A stretch of DNA of 64,000 nt. Origin: Salipiger mucosus DSM 16094 (GTDB lineage Bacteria > Pseudomonadota > Alphaproteobacteria > Rhodobacterales > Rhodobacteraceae). Location: positions 252,467 to 316,466 of the forward strand of contig NZ_KE557274.1 of assembly GCF_000442255.1 (NCBI RefSeq), read 5' to 3'. The first letter of the stretch is position 1; each line of letters opens with the position of its first letter. The notes under the pieces were generated by a model. The model ran no database searches and had not been told where the DNA came from. It saw only the letters and a list, made by a program, of their open reading frames with translations. The translations under genes and the position numbers were made by a program. Positions 1-49,798 of this stretch are shown here, one piece after another.

Positions 1-912
1 CAGGAACCCTGATCCCCACATGAGAGCGTTCGCCGCGAACCCGAGAAGGGATTCCGTGTTGTGCGTCACGATGAAGTCGTCCGTGACGTAGAGATGATCC
101 GGGTGATCGATGTAGATACATTGCGCCGGCTTCCGTCCGACCGGGTCGATGGAGGCAACCCTGGACATTTCCGGGGTGGCGCCAGGACGCGCGATCCTGA
201 TTTCCTGGGTCTCCCCCTGGCTCGCCCGGGCAATGATCTCGAGGGTATCGATGATTTCCGGCTCCCCGGAGCTCCCGAAAACCTGCCACAGGTGGTCACC
301 GCAGGCTTCGGTGGTGGCCCCGTTTTCCAGTGTGATCCTGAAAATCGCGACCTCTCCCTGGGGGTAGATCGCTTTCACCGCGGCGCGTCCGCCATCCGGC
401 GTCGATACTTCATGACCGACCCGCAGATCTCCCATGCGAACGAACCCGTTGGGTGTCAGGACACCGGCCTCCAGCGGCTGCGCCTTACCGGCGCCGGTGG
501 TCCCGACAACGAGGAAGTGCTGCCTGGCATCGTCGTTGGTCAGCCAGACCTCCTTGCCGGTCTTCATCTCGTTTCCAAGGAAGAAGATCCCCTTGGCCGA
601 CGTGGGCTTGCCATGTGCCGGGTGCGGCTGGTGGGGATCGGAAAATCCGCTCTGGATCGGCATCTTCAAGGGCGCCGTTTCTTCGCGCTTCATGCCCCAC
701 CGGTAGAACAGGACCGCGCAGATAAAGATGAACTCTGATATGCCAGGCAGCGCCCAGGCACTTGCGCCCAGGATGAACAACAGCGTGAGCATGTTGTTCG
801 GGATCCTGATCCAGTCGGCAAACTTCTTGAGTTTGCCCCTCGTGTCGCGAACCAGGAACTCTTCGTTGAGCTCCTGCTCGTTCGTCAGACCCCGCGTTTT
901 TCTTTCCACCAT
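1..912 (-). CDS. IcmO/DotL/TrbC-like type IV coupling protein, N-terminal part, interrupted by an intein
   Basis: The gene starts at 912 (ATG) and runs off the left edge. It encodes the inner-membrane ATPase that would feed DNA or protein substrates to an I-type (Dot/Icm, IncI-like) type IV secretion channel. Residues about 28-64 hold hydrophobic membrane segments. Residues about 135-143 read VVGTTGAGK, the Walker A motif. After an in-frame intein of 142 residues the extein resumes TESLLGFAANALMWGSGFL, which matches the P-loop continuation of IcmO/TrbC proteins. Family assignment rests on this P-loop context and the N-terminal membrane region; the rest lies outside the window. It is divergent from the small gene at 1038. 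No frameshift is present, so the host protein should be functional only after splicing. Confidence 0.85.
   Translation of the reverse strand, partial: MVERKTRGLTNEQELNEEFLVRDTRGKLKKFADWIRIPNNMLTLLFILGASAWALPGISEFIFICAVLFYRWGMKREETAPLKMPIQSGFSDPHQPHPAHGKPTSAKGIFFLGNEMKTGKEVWLTNDDARQHFLVVGTTGAGKAQPLEAGVLTPNGFVRMGDLRVGHEVSTPDGGRAAVKAIYPQGEVAIFRITLENGATTEACGDHLWQVFGSSGEPEIIDTLEIIARASQGETQEIRIARPGATPEMSRVASIDPVGRKPAQCIYIDHPDHLYVTDDFIVTHNTESLLGFAANALMWGSGFL
58..483 (-). other. Mini-intein with class 3 (Trp-Cys-Thr) signature inside the coupling-protein P-loop
   Basis: The 142-residue insert lies between Lys and Thr of the Walker A motif GAGK/T. It starts with Ala rather than Cys or Ser. Block A reads TPNGFVRMGDLRVGHEV. 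Block B ends GDHLWQVF, giving His64 and Trp66. Block F begins with Cys122 (CIYIDHPDHLYVTDD). The C-terminus is IVTHN, giving Thr140 and Asn142, followed by a +1 Thr. Trp66, Cys122 and Thr140 form the W-C-T triplet of class 3 inteins, which lack the N-terminal nucleophile and use the block F Cys. Nothing between blocks B and F is long enough for a homing endonuclease, so it is a mini-intein. Reading frame and boundaries were translated base by base. Confidence 0.9.
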
Positions 913-1037
913 GCGCTGACTCTTCGCCTCGGTAACCGCTTGCCGGGCAAGTAGTCGCCAAAGGTTCAAAGGGATTAACGCTTCGTTCAGGGCGGCCGAC
1001 CATATCCCTGGAATACAGGAAAGACAGGGAAGGCGGC

Positions 1038-4791: not shown

Positions 4792-5898
4792 TCAGGACGT
4801 CATCACGGCCTCCTTCAGTTTTTCCGCGCTGGGCGTGATCGTACGCATTTCGTAGTCGCTCAGCGACGGTTCCCACTCGGGGATGTCATCGAGATGTTTT
4901 TCCAGAACGGCCTGCTGGGGCGCGTTCCGGACGAAGACATACCATTGATCCTCCGCCTTCACGCGCTGGCTCCAGTCCACCGACGTTTCGGGGGCGGCCG
5001 CGGTGAAGGCGTAGACAGCGTGTTCAGGCACGTTCGTCTGGCCGGTGCCAGACGAGTTGACGACCTGCCTCCTGAAATTCTTCCGGAAGGCCTTGGCATC
5101 GTGCCCGAAGCCGGTCTGAAGCATCAGTCGCTCCAGGCTGATCTTGAAGATCTCCTGCTCACTTTCGACCCGGGCGACCTCGTATACCCGCTGAACGAAG
5201 GCACTCTTGAGTTGGAAGTACTCGGGCGCATAGGTCAGCAGCTCGGCGTCTTCCTCGAGAGCCGCGACGATCCAGTCGCAGGGCTCAATCGTGAACGACG
5301 TCATGCACCGACGTTCCTTGCCGCCGACATTCCGCGTCTCGTAATGCATGCTGGCGCGTTGAAACCAGCTGAACCACTCGTCCACGCCGCGGCCGTTCAT
5401 CTCGATGTTGGTGTAGATGCGCATGCTCTGAAGGCGTTGGATGCTCAGACGTACCTGGTCATAGGCGTAGCCGGTCGAGGTGGTGTTGGTCGCGCGCAGG
5501 TACTCACCAATAGTGACGTCGACCTTCCTCGGTGTTGATCCGCACGTGCGTTTGATGTGGGCCATCTTCGAGATGACAAACATGAAGAAGTGCTTGTCGA
5601 ACTGCGTCGCGAGCCCATACTTCGGGTTGGGTTCACAACGGAGCTCGACAGAGACCCCGTCCCAGGGGGCACGCGTAACCAGAGATTGTTCGGTGGTGGC
5701 GAGAGCAAAGAACTTGAAGACCATGAGCAGCGGCTTGTTGCCGATGCCGGCCACACGTCCACTATCTCCGAGGTCGAGGTCCAGTTGACCTACCTCGTAG
5801 TGCTCGACACCATCAAGTGCTGCCACATCGACTGTCTCATGTCCCGTAGAAGCCATTGGACCGGCCCCATTTTGTGTTTTCTGCTCGTTGGGGGCCAT
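4792..5898 (-). CDS. repA: Plasmid replication initiator, RPA (replication initiator protein A) family
   Basis: The protein has 368 residues. It matches the RPA-type initiators of alphaproteobacterial plasmids: an N-terminal GNKPLLMVFKFFALA segment, a first winged-helix region around KVDVTIGEYLRATNTTSTGYAYDQV, the FSWFQRASMHYE segment, and a second DNA-binding region (ISLERLMLQTGFGHDAKAF). It would bind the iterons directly upstream and open the origin. ATG at 5898 starts the longest frame without a good ribosome site; ATG at 5856 is an alternative. Four iterons lie between 39 and 200 bases before the start, so the initiator probably represses its own promoter as in other iteron plasmids. Confidence 0.85.
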   Translation of the reverse strand: MAPNEQKTQNGAGPMASTGHETVDVAALDGVEHYEVGQLDLDLGDSGRVAGIGNKPLLMVFKFFALATTEQSLVTRAPWDGVSVELRCEPNPKYGLATQFDKHFFMFVISKMAHIKRTCGSTPRKVDVTIGEYLRATNTTSTGYAYDQVRLSIQRLQSMRIYTNIEMNGRGVDEWFSWFQRASMHYETRNVGGKERRCMTSFTIEPCDWIVAALEEDAELLTYAPEYFQLKSAFVQRVYEVARVESEQEIFKISLERLMLQTGFGHDAKAFRKNFRRQVVNSSGTGQTNVPEHAVYAFTAAAPETSVDWSQRVKAEDQWYVFVRNAPQQAVLEKHLDDIPEWEPSLSDYEMRTITPSAEKLKEAVMTS

Positions 5899-12426: not shown

Positions 12427-15400
12427 TTATCCCGCCTGCGCGAAGTATTCGGGCAGCTCGACATCGTTGTTCTGTCGAGTGGGATCTGCCTCCATCTGTG
12501 CAAGGTTCATCCGGTTGGACCAGTCGTTGGCCCAGTCACGGTAGGAGGAGCCGGCCCAGAAACGGACGCTCTTGTCGTCCATGATCCCGCGGATGAGCTC
12601 GAGCATCTCGTCCTCGTCGGTGATCTGGGCCGCCGCCATCATGCGTCGACCGTTTCCACCGTCGTCGTTCTCCCGGGCCCTGTCGTAGTGGGCCGCAACG
12701 ACCTCGGAGTCGTAGATGCCGCCGAAGTCCTTGTTGTTGGGAGACGGGAACGTCACGTGGTATCCGTTCGTGCCCGACCTCAGGACAAGCGCACGCTTGG
12801 ACAGATCCCGGTCCGGGAAGATGGAGATCGCCTGGTTCTCGCGCAGGGCATCAAACACCATTTCCGGCGTGCGCAGGGCAACCGGGATTCGCCGGCCTTC
12901 CAGGGCGTCCTTGTGGAGAACGATGCCGCGCTTCATGATGCCCGACTTGCCATCCTCGTAGACGCACATGGTGCCCATGTTGTTGTTCTCCTGGGCGATC
13001 TGCAGAGCCCGGAACAGGTTCCCGGTCAGCAACTGGACCTTGCGGCGCTTCTTGAAATCCCGTGACCGGTCGAAGCTGGCGAAAATCGCGTCGACGCGGT
13101 CATCGTCGGCATCGTTGAGCCCGTCCCAGATATGGAATCCGTTGTTCAGCTCATCACGCCGGAAGAAACGGTCGGCCAGCAATGTGTCGAAACTCACCGG
13201 GCGTGGCGTGGCATCCCCCGGAACGACCACCTGGATCTTGTATTTCGCCGCCGCGAAAGCGCTCTTGCGCGGATCTGGATACTGCACCGAGGTCACGATG
13301 CCGGTTTCGCCCATGTCCCCATCGTATCCATCGATACGGATCTCGGAGCCGGGCTTCACGTTCTCCACAAGAGTCTGGAGCTGGCTCATCCGCGTGTTGG
13401 CATCGGCAATCTTGTTGTTGCCGGCCTCGATGGCCTGTTCAACGGTCTCGAACCCTTGAGTCGTGCGCATCAGACGGTTCAGGCGGTCGGCGCGCTCGCT
13501 CTCGATGCGCTCGATCTGGGCCGCGGTGTCGCGACCCTCGCCCTTCTCCAGTGCGTTGTTGACCATGAGGTCCACGTCGTCGCCGGTCAGCGGGCTTGCG
13601 GTTGTCTCCATGACGCAGTCTTCCAGGAACACCGGGGACTCGAAGGCATCGACCGTGTTTTCCTCGGTCGGCCCCTCGAACAGATCCCTGTACTGCTGGT
13701 GGACCACACCTGGCAGGGCCTTGGGCTTGAGCGGGTTCTTGTTCTCTGCGTCAAGCTCGGCGATGTAGGCCTCGAAGTCATTCTGCAGATCTTCCAGGAC
13801 CTGTTCCTGCAGGGCACATGGCAGCAGCAGCATGCGACCTAGGATCTGGTTCGCAGAACGCTTGCTCTCCGCTTGGTCCCCCTCGTTCGCCACGGCAAGG
13901 TTGGCTTCGTTCGTTTCCGCGAACTCCTCGTCGAACCCGAGCATGCGCAGATATTCCGGGTTGAGATCAAAGTAGTTGGAGCACACGGTGTCCCCGACGC
14001 CGTTCAGCATATCGGGGATGTTCTCCATCAGCGTGTTGCTGTCCCGGTTGGACGACACGTTCGCGTTCAGCTTCCGGAGTTTCTGGTTCCGCGATGCGTG
14101 CATCCGCATTTCCGCCGGGATGCCGGAATTGGTGGCAATGATCTTCGGGTTCGTAAGGGAGCCACGGCGGTTGATGCGGCCGTATCCCTGGATCTGGTCA
14201 TTGATATCCTGCGGTGCATCGCCCTCGTAGAGCACACGTTGCCCGTGGTTCTTGAACCATGCAGCATCCTGGAAGCTCAGCCCCTCGAGACCGGACTTGT
14301 TGAGGATGACACCATCCATGTCACCGTTGTTGAACTCGTTCACGACATCGATGGTGCGTGGACGGTTTCGACGGCGAATGCGTCCTCCGCTGTACTCGTG
14401 GCCCCGACCGGTGATTTCCCCGAAATTGAGGCCGGCATCCGCAGCACGGTTCCGGACGGTGTCGATCAGGGAGATCGGTTGTGCCGGGATCTGGTCGATC
14501 AGCGATTTGATGGTCTCGTATCGTTCGGCCAGTGCCGGATCCTCGTCGGCCAGGAATTCCTCGACAGTCCGGCTCGCGTACCGGCGAACATGGTCCGCGT
14601 AGGCATTCGCCGTGTCAGGATCGGCGTCCCTGAGAAACTCTTCGGCGGAGCGCTCGTCACCGTCTCGTTGCCGGGCCAAGAACCGCTCGTAGAGCTCTGG
14701 TGCATTCTCCCCCATGTACTCTTCTGCGGTGCGCTGGGCACCGGACTGCATCCCGCCCGAGAACATGTTGCGGATCTCGCGACGAAGCATGTCACGCATG
14801 TTCGGTTCCGGGGCGGTTTCCAGCTCCTCTTCCTGCTGCGTCTCGTAGAGCTCCTGGAAGAGGGCGCCCTGGGTCCCGTCAGCCATGATGACCGGCTTCC
14901 GGCCATTGCGAACATCCTCGATGGCCATATTGGCGATGCTGTCGGCTTTCACAGCCGAAATCATGGTTTTCATGATGCGGAACAGGGGAGACCCGAAGCC
15001 CAGCTTTGTGTTCTGGATGCTCTTCACGCGGGCCTGTTGGCGCTGGACGTTGTTGTTCGCCTGCCGGCGATCATTGCGTTCGGCCTGCGGATCGAGGGCA
15101 ACGGCTTCTCGCTCCGCCCGAAGGTTGCCCAGCTCGGTCTCGGCCATTTCCACCCGTTGCTGAACACGGCGGTTCACGTCACCGGACAGGAAGGCGACCT
15201 CCGACAGGATCGGCGAGATCGCATCCACCAGCTGGCGGTTCCGGTCGAAGTTGTCCTCGTCGTCCACCGTTTCGAAGGTGAGCTTCGAGTTGTCGTGCTC
15301 ACGGCGGATGAAGACACCGTTCTGTGCCAACATGGACGAGATCACTTCCTGGGCGTTCTCGCCGCCCTTGTTCATGATCTCGTAGAGCGTCTCCTCGTCC

Positions 15401-17916
15401 AGGTATTCCGGGAAGAGGATATTGTAGAGCCCCATTTCCTTGATGCCCTTGGCGTGGGTCGCGGACATGAAGACCGTGCGATCCGCGGACTCGATGGCGG
15501 AACGGATGTTGCGCCCGGTGTTCGAGTTGCCGGTGGCCTTCTGCGCCTCGTCGGGAATGAACACGGTGTTCTCGTCGATCAGGTTTTCGAAGTACCGGAT
15601 CTTGGCGGTCATCATCGAGTCGGGTTGCTCGTGCTCCATTTTTTCAAGGTCGCGCGACACCTGGCTGTAGGTCGCGATCACCAGGTTGTAGCCTTCGGGG
15701 AAGGCGACCTCCCGGGTTTCGACGTCATCGTATTGCTCGGTTTCCTCGTTCCACTTCTGCTCGACGTGCACGTCCGTCAGGATGTCGAGAGCGTGGTCCT
15801 TGGTGAGACCATCGAACCTGCGCGTTTCTCCTGTGCTCTCGTCGGCATACTCGAAGGTGCCGCTGTTGAAGATCAGTGGGTTCACGTGCTCCAGCACGCC
15901 GGCATCGCCGAGGTCGCGAAGGATGTCGGAAATATTGGCGGTCTTGGCGGTCATCATGACGACCGTCTTGCCGTTCAGGATATGACGGCCGGCAATGCCC
16001 GCGGCGGTGCGACCTTTGCCGACACCTGTCTGGTCACCGATATGGAACCCCTGCTTGCCTTGTTCTTCACCGAAGGCTTCGAGCGCCATCGCGTCGACCT
16101 GCTCCGGAGAGAAGCGTTGGCCGAGCTCATCTTTCGTGATCCCCAGGCCGTTCGCGACGTACTCGTCGATATCCGGGTGGTTGCGAAGCACATTGGCCAT
16201 TGCCTGGCGCATCGGCGCCTCAAGGTGCTTCGGCGACATGGTCTCCGGCTCGCCGACACGGGAGGCCGATACGTAGGGCGACTGGTATTCGTTGCGCTCG
16301 GCCTTGGACGCGGTCGCTTCCGCTTCGCGATCCTCATCGAGCGCCGCCAGGTAATTGGCGATCTTCGCCCGCGATTTGATGACCTCGGAAGACCAGGTGT
16401 AGAGGGCGCCGAAATCGAAAATGTCCCGGCGGCGCTGCGAGGCTTCGTGCGGCTCATCAAGAGGCTCCGGGCGCCGGGTGCCGACCGAGAGCATGACCAT
16501 CTTGTCGCCACCGGCTTTTGCCGCGTGGACGGTGCTGTCGATACGGGCGTTGCCTTCCACCGCGTAGTGCTGTCCGAGCACCTTCACGAACCGGTCGAAT
16601 TCCTCGTCCGAGCTGCCGTCCGCTGCAAGGGGGAAGGTGAAGATCGCGTTGCCATCCTCGGACCGCTTGTCCAGCGCGTCGAAAATCTCCAGAAATTCCC
16701 GGCGGCTGAAGGTCTCTCCGCTACGCAGGGTCGGGGTGTCCGTCCATCCGGTTGCGACATTGGCCACGATGACGTCGGATCCATCGTAGGACGGCTCGCT
16801 GCCATCGATGGGATCTTCGCCGCGCAGGCCGAGCTCACGGGAAAAGGTGCGGATCGTCGCCGCCTCGTCCTCTCGGCTCTCGAAGATGCGCATGCTGCCG
16901 TCCTGGCCGCGCCTCCACTTGGCGAACGGCGCGCCCTTGCCGGGGTTCACGAAAACCGCGTTGGTATCGTCTTCGGACAGCGATCCGGCAATCCGGTGCA
17001 GGACGATGGAGATCGGCATGTTGATGTCGCTGACAGCGGATTCCGCCTGCTCGGTTCGCGTGCGATAGGCACTGTTCTCTGTGATCTGCGTGGCCTTCTG
17101 GAACAGCTCGTTCAGAGAACGGTCGGAATGCCGGCGCAGCCATCCGGAGAAGTAGTTGTCGAGGGCCAGGATGAAGGAGTCTTCCTGCTCCGAGGTCGGT
17201 GATTCCGTGCCATGGATCGTTTTCAGGAAGTCCTCGACGTCGGATCGCCGTTTCACTTCGCCAGCGATGATCCGTTCGCCGAACGCCGCGATGCAATCCT
17301 TGAAGGACCGGTCATCGACGCTGCGAAGGAAGAGACCTTTCTGGTCGGAGTCGGCTTCGTTGGTGACAGTCCCGTCCTCGGTCAGGACGATGCGGGCGCC
17401 GGGATTTTCCCCGTCCCCGTCAAAAGACCGAACGTGGTGACCATCCTTGTTCACCCCCACGTCGTAGGTCGTCCGCATGATTTCTGCCAGGCGATCCTTC
17501 TCGGGGCCTGAAACCTGCTCGGGCGCGCTTTTCGCGGGGTCATTCGGCGCGGGCTCTTCCGCCTGCTCCGCGGCCGGCTCGGCCTTGGGCTGCGGGGCCT
17601 CAACGTTCAGGAATACCGAGGAAACAGCCACCTCCGTGACGGAAACCTGGTCATAGCCCCCATCAACGAGCTTGGAGCGGAGGTCTCCCAGGTTGAAGCG
17701 TTCCCCGTCGGGGTAGACGTAGAAGGAGTCGGCGCCGCGCTCGACCTTCCTGAGCCCCATTGCCTCACCCATGGCATCGTACTCTGGCGCCTGCTCGGCG
17801 GCCTTCGCCAGGACGAGCAGGCGCTGCTTGTCATCGCCCTTGGGAACAGTCAGGACGCTGAGCTTGACGTTGTACGCGGAGAGGTCGAGCCATTTGATGT
17901 TCTTCGGGGTACTCAT
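12427..17916 (-). CDS. Giant strawberry-notch/DarB-like superfamily 2 helicase, 1829 residues
   Basis: Walker A lies near residue 630 (GFHIGDQTGVGKGRTAAGIA). The DExx box is near residue 787 (VFIPDEAQKA), followed by a SAT-like motif (FMSATHAKG). The helicase C-terminal half includes a strawberry-notch core near residues 1190-1260 (VILNKSGLEGLSFQDAAW, then DINDQIQGYGRINRRGSL). The order and the G-R-I-N-R arginine finger region match the strawberry-notch family, which includes phage P1 DarB, a virion protein that protects DNA against type I restriction. I see no methyltransferase motif. The N-terminal 550 residues and C-terminal 450 residues are unassigned. The gene lies 18 bases after the acidic-protein gene and six before the PcfJ-like gene. 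Confidence 0.8.
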   Translation of the reverse strand: MSTPKNIKWLDLSAYNVKLSVLTVPKGDDKQRLLVLAKAAEQAPEYDAMGEAMGLRKVERGADSFYVYPDGERFNLGDLRSKLVDGGYDQVSVTEVAVSSVFLNVEAPQPKAEPAAEQAEEPAPNDPAKSAPEQVSGPEKDRLAEIMRTTYDVGVNKDGHHVRSFDGDGENPGARIVLTEDGTVTNEADSDQKGLFLRSVDDRSFKDCIAAFGERIIAGEVKRRSDVEDFLKTIHGTESPTSEQEDSFILALDNYFSGWLRRHSDRSLNELFQKATQITENSAYRTRTEQAESAVSDINMPISIVLHRIAGSLSEDDTNAVFVNPGKGAPFAKWRRGQDGSMRIFESREDEAATIRTFSRELGLRGEDPIDGSEPSYDGSDVIVANVATGWTDTPTLRSGETFSRREFLEIFDALDKRSEDGNAIFTFPLAADGSSDEEFDRFVKVLGQHYAVEGNARIDSTVHAAKAGGDKMVMLSVGTRRPEPLDEPHEASQRRRDIFDFGALYTWSSEVIKSRAKIANYLAALDEDREAEATASKAERNEYQSPYVSASRVGEPETMSPKHLEAPMRQAMANVLRNHPDIDEYVANGLGITKDELGQRFSPEQVDAMALEAFGEEQGKQGFHIGDQTGVGKGRTAAGIAGRHILNGKTVVMMTAKTANISDILRDLGDAGVLEHVNPLIFNSGTFEYADESTGETRRFDGLTKDHALDILTDVHVEQKWNEETEQYDDVETREVAFPEGYNLVIATYSQVSRDLEKMEHEQPDSMMTAKIRYFENLIDENTVFIPDEAQKATGNSNTGRNIRSAIESADRTVFMSATHAKGIKEMGLYNILFPEYLDEETLYEIMNKGGENAQEVISSMLAQNGVFIRREHDNSKLTFETVDDEDNFDRNRQLVDAISPILSEVAFLSGDVNRRVQQRVEMAETELGNLRAEREAVALDPQAERNDRRQANNNVQRQQARVKSIQNTKLGFGSPLFRIMKTMISAVKADSIANMAIEDVRNGRKPVIMADGTQGALFQELYETQQEEELETAPEPNMRDMLRREIRNMFSGGMQSGAQRTAEEYMGENAPELYERFLARQRDGDERSAEEFLRDADPDTANAYADHVRRYASRTVEEFLADEDPALAERYETIKSLIDQIPAQPISLIDTVRNRAADAGLNFGEITGRGHEYSGGRIRRRNRPRTIDVVNEFNNGDMDGVILNKSGLEGLSFQDAAWFKNHGQRVLYEGDAPQDINDQIQGYGRINRRGSLTNPKIIATNSGIPAEMRMHASRNQKLRKLNANVSSNRDSNTLMENIPDMLNGVGDTVCSNYFDLNPEYLRMLGFDEEFAETNEANLAVANEGDQAESKRSANQILGRMLLLPCALQEQVLEDLQNDFEAYIAELDAENKNPLKPKALPGVVHQQYRDLFEGPTEENTVDAFESPVFLEDCVMETTASPLTGDDVDLMVNNALEKGEGRDTAAQIERIESERADRLNRLMRTTQGFETVEQAIEAGNNKIADANTRMSQLQTLVENVKPGSEIRIDGYDGDMGETGIVTSVQYPDPRKSAFAAAKYKIQVVVPGDATPRPVSFDTLLADRFFRRDELNNGFHIWDGLNDADDDRVDAIFASFDRSRDFKKRRKVQLLTGNLFRALQIAQENNNMGTMCVYEDGKSGIMKRGIVLHKDALEGRRIPVALRTPEMVFDALRENQAISIFPDRDLSKRALVLRSGTNGYHVTFPSPNNKDFGGIYDSEVVAAHYDRARENDDGGNGRRMMAAAQITDEDEMLELIRGIMDDKSVRFWAGSSYRDWANDWSNRMNLAQMEADPTRQNNDVELPEYFAQAG

Positions 17917-28702: not shown

Positions 28703-31000
28703 ATGAGCGAGAACACCCGAGAACTGTCGAACATCCTGTCGGACGCCGAGCGTATTGCGCGGGACAACAGCCACTCCAGCACCACCGCAGAGCACCTTCT
28801 CCTGTCCATCATGGAAGATGACAGCGTCAAGGATGCCATCGCGGCCTGCGATGCACCCGTTGATCGGATCCGCGAACTGGTGCAAAGCTTCGTCGTGAGC
28901 GGTATGGACAAACTGAAGTCGGATCCGGCCCAGACGCCTGAGGCGGACGATAGCGTGAACAAGATCATGCGCCGGGCACGGATCCTGGCCCAGACGGATA
29001 GTGGCAGCGCGCAACTCAACAATCTTCGGGTCCTGACGGCCCTAATCGCCGAGAATGGCCAGTGGTCGTCGGCCCTTCTCGCTCAGCACGGCGTGACCCG
29101 GTTTGATGTGGTCAACTGGGCGAAACATGGCGTGACCAAGAGCGAAGCCATTTCGGCCAAGGCCGACGGCGGGCCTGGCCGAGAGGCAAGTACGGTCGGC
29201 CATAGGAATGGATCCCGGAAAAAGGCAGGGCGAGCGCTCGAAGACTTCCTGCTGAGCTACACACGAAACCTGACCGAACTGGCGCTCGAGGGGCAGATTG
29301 CGCCCGTCATCGGACGCGCGTCGGAGATCGAACGGACTGTGCGGATCCTCAGTCGCAAGGAAAAATCGAACCCGGTCTTCGTCGGGGATCCCGGTGTCGG
29401 CAAGACCAAGCTCGCCGAGGGGCTCGCCCTGCAGATCGCCGAAGGTCGTGCACCGGACGTACTCAAGAACCGGCAGCTGATCGAAGTGGATATGGCGGCG
29501 TTGATGTCAGGCTGCAAGTTCCGCGGTGATTTCGAGGAGCGCGTGAAGAAGCTCATCGGGATCGCGGAATCCGATCCGACCATCATCCTGTTCATCGACG
29601 AGATCCACAGCATCCTCGAGATCGGGGACAGCGGTGGTGATACCATGGGCGCCGGCGACATCATGAAGCCCGCCCTCTCGCGCGGAAACATCTCCGTCAT
29701 CGGCGCAACGACATTCAAGGAGTACCGCTCGGTCTTCGAAAAGGACCCGGCACTGTCGCGTCGTTTCCAGAAGGTGATGGTCGAGGAGCCCGACCGGGAC
29801 ACCGCCATCGAAATCGTCGAGAAGGCAGCCGATGGCCTGTCAGACCACCACGGCGTCTCGTTTTCAGAAGACATCATCGAACACGCGGTCGACCTGTCGA
29901 TCCGCTACATCCGGGATCGCAAGCTTCCGGACAAGGCGCTCGACCTGCTCGACGAGACCGCAGCCGGCTACAGTTCCGCCGAGGGCAAACGCGTGTCCCC
30001 GGATGTCGTCTCGCGCGAAGCGCTGGAAAAATCAGCCGAACTCATGACAGGTGTTCCGGTGGTCACCGGTGGTGCCACAGAGATCGACATCCTGCGGGAT
30101 CTCGATGCCACCCTGGCCTCGAGGATCTTCGGTCAGCGTGATGCGGTGTCAACCGTGAGCCGTGCCATCAAGGTGGCGCGCGCAGGTCTGCGCGAAAGCG
30201 AGCGCCCCATCGGCAGCTTCCTGTTCGTCGGCCCCACCGGTGTCGGCAAGACCGAGCTGACGCGCAGCCTGTCCGAAGCCATGGGGCTCGAGCTGATCCG
30301 GTTCGACATGTCGGAGTACATGGAGAAGCACTCCGTGGCTCGCCTGATCGGGGCCCCTCCGGGGTACGTGGGTCACACCACCGGCGGGCAACTGACCGAA
30401 GCTGTCCAGAAGAACCCCTATAGCGTCGTGCTTCTGGACGAGATCGAGAAAGCTCACCCCGACATCGCGGACACGCTCCTGCAGGTGATGGATCACGGCA
30501 CGCTCACCGATGCACAGGGACGCAAGATCGATTTCAGGAACACGATCATCATCCTGACGTCGAACGCAGGCGCCTCCGCAATGGCCAAGCCCGGGATCGG
30601 CTTCGGGAGCAGCACGCCCAGCGCACCCGAAGACAATCCCGAAATCGAGAATGTCTTCCGTCCCGAGTTCCGAAACCGTCTGGATGCCATCGTCTCTTTC
30701 CATCAGCTGCCGCGGGAAGCCGTCAGCCAGATCGTCGACGCCATGATCGCCGATCTGGAGGAGCGCCTGGCGGATAAGCAGGTGACCCTGGACATCACGC
30801 CCGAAGCACGAGACTGGCTGGCCAAGAAGGGGCACAGCTCCACCATGGGCGCCCGTCCGATGGGCCGGCTGATTTACCAGCAGATCAGCACCCCGCTGTC
30901 CGAAGAGGTCCTCTTCGGCGCTCTGGCGGGCGGTGGCATGGCATCCGTATCCGTGGACACGGACAGCGATGAACTCAAGATCGCGGCGGTGGCGGACTGA
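28703..31000 (+). CDS. clpA: ClpA-type AAA+ unfoldase
   Basis: The protein has 765 residues, the usual ClpA length. The N domain is present (TAEHLLLSIMEDDSVKDAI). D1 has Walker A GDPGVGKT near residue 230 and Walker B ILFIDEIHSI. D2 has GPTGVGKT near residue 512, VVLLDEIEKAHPDIADTLLQ, and the sensor region FRPEFRNRLDAIVSF. The D2 loop contains PGIGFG, in the place of the IGL/IGF tripeptide that docks on ClpP, so it should feed a ClpP peptidase. There is no middle coiled coil, which excludes ClpB. No clpP or clpS is nearby, so partners would come from the chromosome. The gene shares a stop/start overlap with the 58-residue gene downstream. Confidence 0.92.
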   Translation: MSENTRELSNILSDAERIARDNSHSSTTAEHLLLSIMEDDSVKDAIAACDAPVDRIRELVQSFVVSGMDKLKSDPAQTPEADDSVNKIMRRARILAQTDSGSAQLNNLRVLTALIAENGQWSSALLAQHGVTRFDVVNWAKHGVTKSEAISAKADGGPGREASTVGHRNGSRKKAGRALEDFLLSYTRNLTELALEGQIAPVIGRASEIERTVRILSRKEKSNPVFVGDPGVGKTKLAEGLALQIAEGRAPDVLKNRQLIEVDMAALMSGCKFRGDFEERVKKLIGIAESDPTIILFIDEIHSILEIGDSGGDTMGAGDIMKPALSRGNISVIGATTFKEYRSVFEKDPALSRRFQKVMVEEPDRDTAIEIVEKAADGLSDHHGVSFSEDIIEHAVDLSIRYIRDRKLPDKALDLLDETAAGYSSAEGKRVSPDVVSREALEKSAELMTGVPVVTGGATEIDILRDLDATLASRIFGQRDAVSTVSRAIKVARAGLRESERPIGSFLFVGPTGVGKTELTRSLSEAMGLELIRFDMSEYMEKHSVARLIGAPPGYVGHTTGGQLTEAVQKNPYSVVLLDEIEKAHPDIADTLLQVMDHGTLTDAQGRKIDFRNTIIILTSNAGASAMAKPGIGFGSSTPSAPEDNPEIENVFRPEFRNRLDAIVSFHQLPREAVSQIVDAMIADLEERLADKQVTLDITPEARDWLAKKGHSSTMGARPMGRLIYQQISTPLSEEVLFGALAGGGMASVSVDTDSDELKIAAVAD

Positions 31001-32325: not shown

Positions 32326-33195
32326 ATGACACTCATCATCGGCATCATTCTCGTAATTGGGCTCGTTTTCGGTGGCTTCGTGCTATCCGGGGGCAAGTTC
32401 GACATCATCCTGCACGCACTTCCCTTCGAGGGCATGATGATCGGTGGCGCCGCCATCGGCTCCTTCGTGATCGCGAACAGCATCCCGCTCATCAAGCAAA
32501 GCGCGGCAGGCGTTCTTAAGGTTGCCAAGGGCGCGAAGTGGAAGTCACAGGATTACTCCGATCTTCTGCTGATGATGTTCGAGCTCACACGCCTCTACAA
32601 GCAGCGGGGCCCCCAGGGGATCGATCCACACATCGAGAAGCCCGAGGAAAGCGAGATCTTCGGTCGCTACCCGAAGATCCAGAAAGACCACCATGCGATG
32701 GACCTGATCACGGATACCTTCCGCTCGATCACGCTGGGTCTCGTTGAGCCCATGCAGGTCGAAGACCACATCGAGAAGCAGCTGAAGAAGCACCACCACG
32801 AAGCCCTGGCACCAGCCGGATCCATCCAGCAGATGGCGGACGGCCTGCCGGCCATCGGCATCGTTGCCGCCGTTCTGGGCGTGATCAAGACAATGTCCTC
32901 CATCGACAAGCCGCCGGAGGTCCTTGGGGGCATGATCGGCGGCGCCCTCGTCGGGACGTTTCTCGGCGTCTATCTCGCCTACGGCTTCGTCGCGCCGCTT
33001 GCCGGCCGCCTGACGCAGATCGAGGAAGAAGACAGCGCATTCCTCAAGGTGATCCGGGACGTCATCGTCGCCACCGCGCATGGCCACCCGCCGGTGATCG
33101 CCATCGAACTCGGCCGCGGCGCGGTTCCCAGCAAGATGCAACCGACCTTCTCCGAAGTCGAGCAGTCGCAGCAAGAGGCGCCGAAACTCGCCTGA
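32326..33195 (+). CDS. motA: Flagellar stator protein MotA
   Basis: The protein has 289 residues and the four MotA membrane helices: two at residues 1-52 and two at about 170-222. The cytoplasmic loop carries the family segment IEKPEESEIFGRYPKIQKDH. The channel-lining helix has GLPAIGIVAAVLGVI with the conserved Pro. The C-terminal VIAIELGRGAVPS followed by a QPTFSE tail is typical of flagellar MotA rather than ExbB/TolQ. MotA needs MotB to form an H+-driven stator; no motB is present in the window. It is followed by an unknown gene, cheY and cheZ on the same strand. Confidence 0.92.
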   Translation: MTLIIGIILVIGLVFGGFVLSGGKFDIILHALPFEGMMIGGAAIGSFVIANSIPLIKQSAAGVLKVAKGAKWKSQDYSDLLLMMFELTRLYKQRGPQGIDPHIEKPEESEIFGRYPKIQKDHHAMDLITDTFRSITLGLVEPMQVEDHIEKQLKKHHHEALAPAGSIQQMADGLPAIGIVAAVLGVIKTMSSIDKPPEVLGGMIGGALVGTFLGVYLAYGFVAPLAGRLTQIEEEDSAFLKVIRDVIVATAHGHPPVIAIELGRGAVPSKMQPTFSEVEQSQQEAPKLA

Positions 33196-43210: not shown

Positions 43211-45913
43211 TTATTCTTCCGTGGCGTCGTTCTCGGTCGCCGGGATCCTGGCCACCGTGGTGATGGTCTTGCCTTCATCAATGTTGAAGAGCTTGACCCC
43301 CTGCGTGGTTCGACCTGCTTTCCGGATACCTTCGACCGGGATGCGGATCGTCTGTCCATCCTTCGTCATCATGACCAGGCCATCACCTTCGGTCACAGGA
43401 AAGCAGGTCAGCAACGGGCCCGTCTTCTTGTTGATCTGGGCGGCCGAGAACCCTTTTCCGCCCCGGTTGGTGGTCCGGTACTCGTAGGCACTGGACCTCT
43501 TGGCGAAACCGTTTTCGGAAACGGTGATGAGGATGTCTTCCTGGTCGGCCAATTGCTGCATCCGCTCGGAGGTCAGTTCGACCTCGCGTTCGGAATTCTC
43601 GCCGCCCAGGATGGTTTTCCCGCCGGCATTGTAGGCTTGCCGTTCTTCTTCGCTTGCGTCGTTCCCGGACAGGAGGCATGCGCTGATGATGCGGTCACCC
43701 TTGGCAAGCGACATTCCCCGGACACCGGTGGAGGTGCGCGATGCAATAACCCTCAGGTCCCCGACACGCACACGCAGGCACTGGCCCTTCTGCGTCGCCA
43801 TGAGGATGGTGTCCTCGTCACTGCAGAGAAGGACGTTCACCAGCTTGCCCTTGGGATTCCCGTTCTCATCATCGAGCGGCATGGCGATCTTCCCGCGCTT
43901 GTTGACGTTGGAGAAGTCCGATGCGCGGCTGCGACGGATGTTTCCAAAATCGGTGACGAAGACCATGCTGAGTCCCTCTGCCTCTTCCTCGGTTTCCGGC
44001 ATCGGGATCACCGAAGACAGACGTTCGCCTTCGGTCGAGCGCAGCTGCATGTAGTTGATCATCGGCCGGCCTCGGGCGTTGATGGCGCCTTCGGGAAGTT
44101 GCCAGGCCTTCAGCTTGTGGGCGATCCCGCGCGAAGTGAAGAAGAGCAGGGGACTGTGCGAAGAGCAGGTCATCACGGATGTGATGAAGTCCCCGTCCTT
44201 CATGTCCATGCCACTGCGACCTTTTCCGCCACGCTTCTGCTCACGGTAGCTTTCGAGGTCGGTCCGCTTGACGTATCCGCCATTGGTGAAGCTGAGAACC
44301 ACATCTCGACGGTCGATGAGATCCTCGTCCGACAGAATGTCCAGTTCGTTTGCCTCGATCCGGGTCCGGCGTTCATCGGAGAACTTCTCCCGGGCCTCGA
44401 TGAGTTCCTGCTCGACGACACCGATCAGGACATCACGGTTGTTCAGGATCCGGACGTAGCCACGGATCTCCGCGGAAATCTCGCGCGAGCGCTCGGCGAT
44501 CTTGTCACGTTCCATGCCGGTCAGGCTGCGCAGGTTCAGGGAAAGAATGGCGGAAGCCTGCCCCTCGTTGAGGTAGAATTCCTTCTCGGCCGAGTGGAAT
44601 TCATTGTCCGGGTCCGCATCCTCCAGGAGCTTCTGGAAATCGCCCTCGACCGGGAAGGCAAGCTGCATGAGACGGGTACGCGCATGATCGCCATCGGACG
44701 ATGACTTGATGAGATCGACCACCTTGTCGACCAAGGATACGGCGGCATACAGCCCCACCTGCTTCACCAACGCATCGCGGGCCTTGGTCAGGTCATGGAT
44801 GGTCCGCCGGCGCACCACGTCCTTGCGGAAGTCAACGAACGCCTCGATCTGCTCCATCAGGCTCATCACCTTCGGGCGCCCGTAAATATCCAGACAGGTC
44901 GCATTCACGGCGAAGGACGACACCAGGTCGGTGTTCTTCCGAAGCTTGTTCAAGATCAGGTTGGGATCGGCGTCCCGGCGCAGTTCGATCACCACGCGCA
45001 CGTTGTTCTCCCGGTCGGACTCGTCCCGGACGTCCGTGATCCCCTCGAGAACACGTTCGTTCAGGAGGTGGGCGATCTTTTCCTGGAACGTCGCCTTGTT
45101 CACGTTGTAGGGCAGCTCACTGATGACGATGCGGCTCTTGCCGTTCTTCATCTCCTCGATGTCCGACACCCCGCTGATCGCGATCACGCCGCGGCCGTCC
45201 TCGTAGGCTTCGCGGATCCCGGACTTGCCCCGGATCACCCCGCCGGTCGGGAAGTCGGGGCCGGGCATGACCTTCATGATTTCCGATAGATCGGCTTCGG
45301 GCGATTTCAGCTTGAGCAGGCAAGCGTCGATGGCTTCGGCAGGGTTGTGGGGCGGCATCTTGGTGGCCATGCCCACGGCAATGCCCGCGCCGCCATTGAT
45401 GATCAGGTTTGGGATCACAGTCGGGAGCACGACAGGCTCCACGTCCTTGTTGTCGTAGGTGGGCGTCCAGTCGACGGTGGAGCGCTCGTAGTCCCGGGTC
45501 ATCTCGTGCGCGGCCCGTGTCATGCGGGCCTCGGTGTAGCGCATGGCCGCCGGACTGTCTCCGTCGAGGGAGCCGAAGTTGCCTTGCCCGTCGACGAGCG
45601 GCAGGCGCATCGCGAAGTCCTGCTCCATGCGCACCATGGTGTCGTAGATCGCGGAGTCACCGTGCGGGTGAAGGGAACCCATCACGTCCCCGACGATCCT
45701 TGCCGACTTGCTGTAGGCCTTGTCCTTGGAATAGCCGCCCTTGATCATCGCGAAGAGGATCCGGCGATGCACGGGCTTGAGGCCGTCGCGAATGTCGGGA
45801 AGGGCTCGAGACACGATCACCGACATCGCGTAGTCCAGGTAGGACGTTTGCATGACCTGGCTGATGTCCACGTCGTCGGAGGAAGACGGGTTCTCGATTG
45901 CTTCTTGCGTCAT
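43211..45913 (-). CDS. gyrA: DNA gyrase subunit A
   Basis: The protein has 900 residues and is complete. The catalytic Tyr lies in [12 protein letters not shown]. The quinolone region reads [14 protein letters not shown], with the Ser and Asp equivalent to Escherichia coli Ser83 and Asp87 both kept, so no resistance change is seen. The GyrA box QKRGGKG is present in the C-terminal domain, which marks gyrase rather than topoisomerase IV. Six beta-pinwheel blades are covered by length. With GyrB it forms the A2B2 enzyme that introduces negative supercoils. It has its own promoter and lies 480 bases from the gyrB unit's last gene, with the bactofilin gene in between. Confidence 0.96.

Positions 45914-46851: not shown

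Positions 46852-49798
<2,947 letters not shown>

Follow-up and report, generated by a model that had tools for sequence, protein, structure and literature searches.

The question raised by this locus is what an in-frame stretch of 142 residues is doing inside the Walker A motif (P-loop) of a protein that resembles conjugative coupling proteins, and whether it is likely to remove itself. The window, which is the whole stretch of 64,000 nucleotides analyzed from Salipiger mucosus DSM 16094, lies inside the 702-kb contig C2 of a genome (G000) of 5.69 Mb in 30 contigs. At the start of the window, a minus-strand reading frame of 1032 amino acids from a TTG, or 1013 from an ATG, is free of stops across the insert and is made up of the following parts.

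484-969, minus strand: N-extein of the coupling protein, which ends in GTTGAGK and has the P-loop Lys at 486-484
969 and 912-910, minus strand: start candidates from the frame reading, TTG at 969 and ATG at 912-910
58-483, minus strand: class 3 mini-intein of 142 residues (AQPLEAG...VTHN), residue 1 at 483-481 and residue 142 at 60-58
1-57, minus strand: start of the C-extein, sequence TESLLG, with the +1 Thr at 57-55

The start annotated for the Bosea homologue suggests that the ATG at 912-910 is the likelier of the two. The gene extends 2130 bases past the window start, to G000:C2:250337 (locus L002:14338). The calculated precursor from the ATG has 1013 residues (~110 kDa) and, without the intein, 871 residues (~95 kDa).

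The exteins on both sides of the insert match the NCBIfam model TrbC_conju (E 6e-118, 395 bits, in two stretches, the better being 304-768). The 395 bits fall short of the 800-bit equivalog cut-off of NF041447 TrbC_conju, as do the 413 bits of the intein-less Bosea homologue, and we therefore use the name IcmO/TrbC-like rather than that of the equivalog. The C-extein scores above the Pfam cut-offs for TraG-D_C (39 bits versus 22) and TrwB_AAD_bind (31.6 bits versus 20.5), and both matches point to membership in the type IV coupling proteins (TraG/TraD/VirD4 superfamily); a Pfam search limited to the in-window part of the protein was uninformative. These results agree with a sequence-only reading of this DNA, which had called the host an IcmO/DotL-type coupling protein. 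The best plasmid homologues share 56 to 63% identity with our protein over the matched pieces; the large plasmids that carry them come from Rhizobium leguminosarum, Methylorubrum extorquens AM1, and two Bosea strains. A plus-strand frame at 61-738 was discarded as antisense to the matched coupling protein. Separately, in a record named as Dolichospermum phage Dfl-JY45, a gene that is annotated as hypothetical (L118:1776-4340) encodes an IcmO-like coupling ATPase with 39% identity that covers half of our protein.

Genes for DotH/IcmK (PF12293) and DotI/IcmL (PF11393) and a TrbI/DotG-like gene, all on contig C2, score above their Pfam cut-offs. A DotO/IcmB homologue (37% identity, E 6.8e-182), for which Pfam named no family, is found at C2:209455-212346. 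The presence of DotH, DotI, DotO, and DotG-like genes on one replicon points to a type IVB (MPF_I) transfer system. The type IVB genes found are spread across about 290 kb of the contig. Two further features of the window concern the replicon itself.

4792-5898: plasmid-type replication initiator of the RPA family
12427-17916: strawberry-notch-type helicase

The best three plasmid matches of the helicase lie on the two Bosea megaplasmids and the Methylorubrum megaplasmid, all of which also bear coupling-protein homologues; this suggests a related megaplasmid family. None of 19 other genomes from the same genus has a match, and this fits an accessory replicon. The gene is best described as encoding an IcmO/TrbC-like coupling protein that belongs to a type IVB-like system of a megaplasmid-like replicon, and the transfer system of this replicon is presumably conjugative. 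The contig also holds two topoisomerase-like genes, and minus-strand frames at window positions 43211-45913 and 47276-49729 have N-termini that we take to resemble gyrase A and gyrase B subunits. Genes for a Clp-type AAA ATPase and for MotA and MotB domain proteins (window 28703-31000 and 32326-33195; L113:7616-8728) were also observed on this megaplasmid-like contig.

The insert separates the Lys from the Thr of the Walker A motif in frame (GTTGAGK/T, where the slash marks the insertion point), and translation confirms to the nucleotide the position 58-483, the 142 in-frame residues, and the Lys/Thr cut given by the sequence-only reading. The Rhizobium and Bosea homologues read GTTGAGK/TE without a gap; aligned with the joined exteins over 864 and 841 columns, they are 55% and 53% identical, respectively. 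In a class sample of 385 genomes, 25 have a match, ours included, and all 13 others that match both sides of the P-loop are without the insert: their first match ends at query positions 164 to 169, their second starts at 303 to 306, and the two overlap or touch in the genome. One of these 13 (G379) has a TAA within the first stretch. The remaining 11 of the 25 genomes give one-sided or very weak matches that are uninformative on the site, among them a match across the intein end in G156 (E 1.9e-4). Two genomes of the same family cover the site, and the insert is present in G033 and absent from G041. An alignment with homologues had been proposed as a check in the sequence-only reading, and by this check the 142 residues are not host sequence. 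Because the insert shares its frame with matching exteins, the empty sites are gapless, and related inteins occupy the same IcmO junction (see below), we conclude that the insert is not there by chance.

Class 3 inteins are defined by Trp at position 12 of block B (B:12), Cys at F:4, and Thr at G:5, together with His at B:10, His at G:6, Asn at G:7, and a +1 nucleophile (PMC5222942). The corresponding residues of our intein, with its only other cysteine, are as follows.

301-303, minus strand: Cys61, B:7, the sole other intein cysteine; Cys in 30 of 50 distinct rows
292-294, minus strand: His64, B:10; invariant in 36/36 aligned inteins
286-288, minus strand: Trp66, B:12, class 3 signature; Trp in 49 of 50 distinct rows (Asn in viral locus L030)
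118-120, minus strand: Cys122, F:4, class 3 nucleophile; invariant in 36/36 aligned inteins
64-66, minus strand: Thr140, G:5, class 3 signature; invariant in 36/36 aligned inteins
58-60, minus strand: Asn142, terminal Asn, G:7; invariant in 36/36 aligned inteins

The 36-row alignment combines our intein with 35 of the 53 that were read from loci L020-L074. It shows no variation at G13, H64, C122, T140, H141, and N142, and at least 90% of its rows have W66. W66, C122, and T140 thus supply the WCT signature, and H64, H141, N142, and Thr+1 supply the remaining class 3 residues. Position 1 is Ala, in keeping with a class in which no nucleophile is required there. Ala1, Trp66, Cys122, Thr140, Asn142, and the +1 Thr had all been named correctly from the sequence, and His64 and His141 can be added to them. 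At 142 residues in all, and lacking a homing endonuclease domain in the stretch from block B to block F, the element is a mini-intein; searched against Pfam at E values up to 1, it gave only a weak Hint_2 match (12.7 bits, cut-off 28.4) and no endonuclease.

An AlphaFold2 model of the intein, built on the 36-row alignment, has a pLDDT of 97.4. A Foldseek search of the PDB with this model ranks first six chains from two class 3 inteins, MchDnaB-1 of Mycobacterium chimaera (6rix and 6riy) and MsmDnaB-1 of M. smegmatis (6bs8), and among the five PDB sequence matches the best three are these same class 3 DnaB inteins, the other two being gp41-1 inteins. In VIA-align, 6bs8, 6rix, and 6riy have Z scores of 19.2 to 19.8 over 123 to 128 residues, which does not set them apart from gp41-1 (20.4), Prp8, and other inteins; the fold thus identifies an intein, and the class assignment rests on the motifs. 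Based on the model, the insert is predicted to have the intein (HINT) fold. The full set of class 3 residues, the modeled fold, and the empty sites together uphold the earlier description of the insert as a class 3 mini-intein.

A tblastn search with the intein (E ≤1e-3) matched 24 of 72,556 plasmid records and 432 of 50,697 phage records. The same intein family occupies K/T or K/S of unlike proteins at most of 48 viral loci, and the kinship with phage inteins noted in the earlier reading is supported. In proteins of the IcmO kind, inteins at the same P-loop junction were found in G033 (308 amino acids), Methylorubrum extorquens AM1 (365), Massilia (367, with a +1 Ser), Xanthomonas (145), Pseudomonas syringae (150), and five further Pseudomonas genomes (150). 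A second IcmO site, ARSLGF/C, holds 142-residue inteins in Burkholderia vietnamiensis, Ralstonia, and Cupriavidus; it is empty in our protein, which reads ARSLGFTMVY. The IncC plasmids pKAZ5 (L078:1946-4918) and pN069_1 (L079) carry TraD with a 369-residue WCT intein at GTTGSGK/T; three more plasmid records match in the same way and one E. coli record matches in part. The TraD of pKAZ5 scores 725.8 bits for TIGR03743, for which the cut-off is 366. As a side observation, an ATPase annotated as T2SS/T4P/T4SS family on a Miltoncostaea oceani plasmid (L080:2341-4662) has a 338-residue WCT intein at GEMGAGK/T.

Extraction from the fetched loci gave 64 inteins, a further 7 frames being rejected for an unclear start or end. 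The residue before the intein is Lys in 60 of the 64, and the +1 residue is Thr in 55, Ser in 6, and Cys in 3, counts that lean toward the extraction rule, which accepted only inserts preceded by Lys, Phe, or Asn and followed by Ser, Thr, or Cys. Cys is present at the fixed F:4 distance in 63 of 64; the exception (L064) is shifted by one residue. Intein counts and trees leave out L001, L003, L004, and L011 (repeats of kept loci), L079 (identical to L078 over the match), L109-L114, and L007 and L010 (G024, in which the intein-like match is in another, split frame). A two-pattern scan of the genome contigs yielded 10 loci from 90 pattern matches. In a phylum sample, 9 of 398 genomes have a match, ours included, and none of the junctions at L121 and L123-L128 reads GTTGxGK.

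Taken together, these results make it very probable that the Walker A motif of this IcmO/TrbC-like coupling protein is interrupted by a class 3 mini-intein that is able to splice, most likely a descendant of phage-type homing inteins. By analogy with studied class 3 inteins, Cys122 would attack the Lys-Ala1 junction after translation, and the N-extein would then move to Thr+1. Cyclization of Asn142 would free the 15.3-kDa intein, and an acyl shift would join ...GTTGAGK to TESLLG..., which would restore the P-loop and leave a protein of ~95 kDa. The activity of the transfer ATPase would then depend on splicing.

There is an outside chance that this intein has decayed while still looking intact, so that splicing is slow or has ceased, the coupling protein is dead, and the replicon no longer transfers itself. 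The scatter of the type IVB genes over the contig would fit such a history, as would the MOB-suite labeling of three related megaplasmids as non-mobilizable and the state of the IcmO gene that hosts the studied Burkholderia vietnamiensis (Bvi) intein, which is itself interrupted by an integrase gene. Against decay, every catalytic residue is present, the 1032-residue frame has no stop, the GC content of the intein (0.63) resembles that of the exteins (0.61), and DotG-, DotH-, DotI-, and DotO-like genes are all retained. For IcmO P-loop inteins from five Pseudomonas genomes, dN/dS is 0.05 to 0.13 in 10 of 10 pairs, and for 400 C-extein codons of the same pairs it is 0.005 to 0.114, the intein value being the higher in 9 of 10 pairs; these values describe purifying selection on relatives and not on our copy, which is without a close relative here.

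A competent intein could also splice conditionally and act as a post-translational switch that licenses DNA transfer, e.g., through a reversible Cys61-Cys122 disulfide. We regard this as unlikely, slightly more so than decay. Its precedent is the class 3 intein Msm DnaBi1, also in a P-loop, in which oxidation of the catalytic cysteine reversibly halts splicing through a Cys48-Cys118 disulfide (PMC6195587). Our intein has exactly two cysteines, which leaves Cys61 as the only candidate redox partner of Cys122, and Cys occurs at B:7 in 30 of the 50 distinct rows. However, the partner cysteine is not in the same place as in DnaBi1: Msm Cys48 has no positional equivalent in our intein (Phe48), and where ours has Cys61 in block B, Msm DnaB-1 has Asp62 (positions compared by hand). 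Viral relatives in unlike proteins usually have Cys at B:7 too, so this residue is not special to transfer genes, and it is absent from the Xanthomonas and Pseudomonas IcmO inteins. Moreover, the insert is sporadic, being missing from all 13 other genomes matched on both sides, which argues that DNA transfer does not need it. The broader proposal that the P-loop of coupling proteins is a recurrent class 3 landing site (two sites in IcmO, one in IncC TraD) and that a CxxH-Cys122 redox gate operates here is, as a whole, less probable again. If such a gate exists, newly made coupling protein would pump DNA only when the thiol state of the cell permits, which would amount to a post-translational transfer licence. 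More generally, splicing as a control point for conjugation is possible but unsupported. As for the 142 residues being conserved IcmO host sequence and no intein at all, the homologues with empty sites, the match of the modeled insert to the intein fold, and the range in length of inteins at this one site (142 to 367 amino acids) leave this with almost no probability.

The origin of the intein was approached through its relatives. Over the splicing blocks it is at most 58% identical to any of them, a value reached by viral locus L041 and by the Massilia IcmO intein. In the best tree, computed from 48 splicing-block rows of the 50 distinct (two viral near-copies were omitted), the IcmO P-loop inteins do not group together: the IcmO P-loop label requires 5 changes, of which the starred branches force 2. 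A single clade of IcmO P-loop inteins is nevertheless not rejected (p-AU 0.131), and in five further one-clade tests on 46 rows, from which the long branches of G033 and Arthrobacter were omitted, no grouping is rejected (p-AU 0.116 to 0.439). The tree tests are thus compatible with either single or multiple entry into IcmO. The large inserts that inteins at the same site carry in Methylorubrum, Massilia, and G033 suggest that the small inteins likely arose by loss of an endonuclease; a string in the Methylorubrum insert, LLGALLGDG, is reminiscent of the LAGLIDADG motif. Most likely, the ancestor was a homing, endonuclease-bearing, phage-type intein that inserted at Lys/Thr or Lys/Ser of P-loops and has since lost its endonuclease.

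This intein adds the Walker A motif of a type IVB-like coupling protein to the sites of class 3 inteins, and it connects a selfish element of the phage type with the machinery of plasmid transfer. Since a single junction is occupied in several lineages by inteins that differ in length and is empty in close relatives, it offers a natural set in which to ask whether splicing limits DNA transfer.

The sequence-only reading knew of no well-described case of such an intein in a conjugative coupling protein, and this does not stand. The Bvi IcmO intein of B. vietnamiensis G4 is a plasmid-borne class 3 mini-intein of 142 amino acids that splices in E. coli (Tori and Perler 2016, PMC5222942), in a host protein whose function that paper calls unestablished. 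It is at another site, but the P-loop inteins of other IcmO genes and of IncC TraD count further against the claim. Among the papers listed from the open-licence literature, none combines class 3, IcmO, and the P-loop and none treats IncC TraD inteins; a paper on Azotobacter concerns ribonucleotide reductase inteins.

The Bvi IcmO intein (plasmid pBVIE03) resembles ours in coupling-protein family, class, length, Cys122, and Asn142, with 35% identity. It differs in its site (ARSLGF/CITFA), its +1 Cys, and its Pro at position 1. The integrase gene in its host gene (L017:3058-7620) cuts the latter upstream of the intein, and the P-loop of that gene is intein-free. The other IcmO P-loop inteins share with ours the host family, the Lys/Thr junction (Lys/Ser in Massilia), and the WCT signature, and they differ in being 145 to 367 amino acids long, with 38 to 65% identity per matched stretch. 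Unlike ours, those of Methylorubrum, Massilia, and G033 have their large inserts between blocks B and F, and those of Xanthomonas and Pseudomonas begin with Pro rather than Ala. The IncC TraD intein of pKAZ5 is likewise at the P-loop Lys/Thr of a conjugative coupling protein, with an AQPL start, the WCT signature, and 56% identity to ours over the splicing blocks, but its host is of the SXT_TraD kind on MPF_F plasmids and, at 369 amino acids, it is full-size.

Outside the coupling proteins, Msm DnaB-1, Mle DnaB, and MchDnaB-1 are class 3 mini-inteins of the same fold as the one predicted here, and those of Msm and Mle are at the P-loop, directly after its Lys (GVGK/ST; PMC5222942). In contrast with ours, the host of all three is a replicative helicase and the +1 residue is Ser. 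In phages, Lys/Thr of the terminase P-loop is described as a "classic" intein insertion, as for mycobacteriophage TerL1-a (PMC5050341). TerL1-a and related phage inteins share the invariant P-loop Lys/Thr with ours, and the same phages carry WCT class 3 members (PMC5050341), whereas their hosts are terminases and other proteins and not coupling proteins. Based on these comparisons, we conclude that intein class, host family, and type of site all have precedents and that the Salipiger intein is a further case of a known kind.
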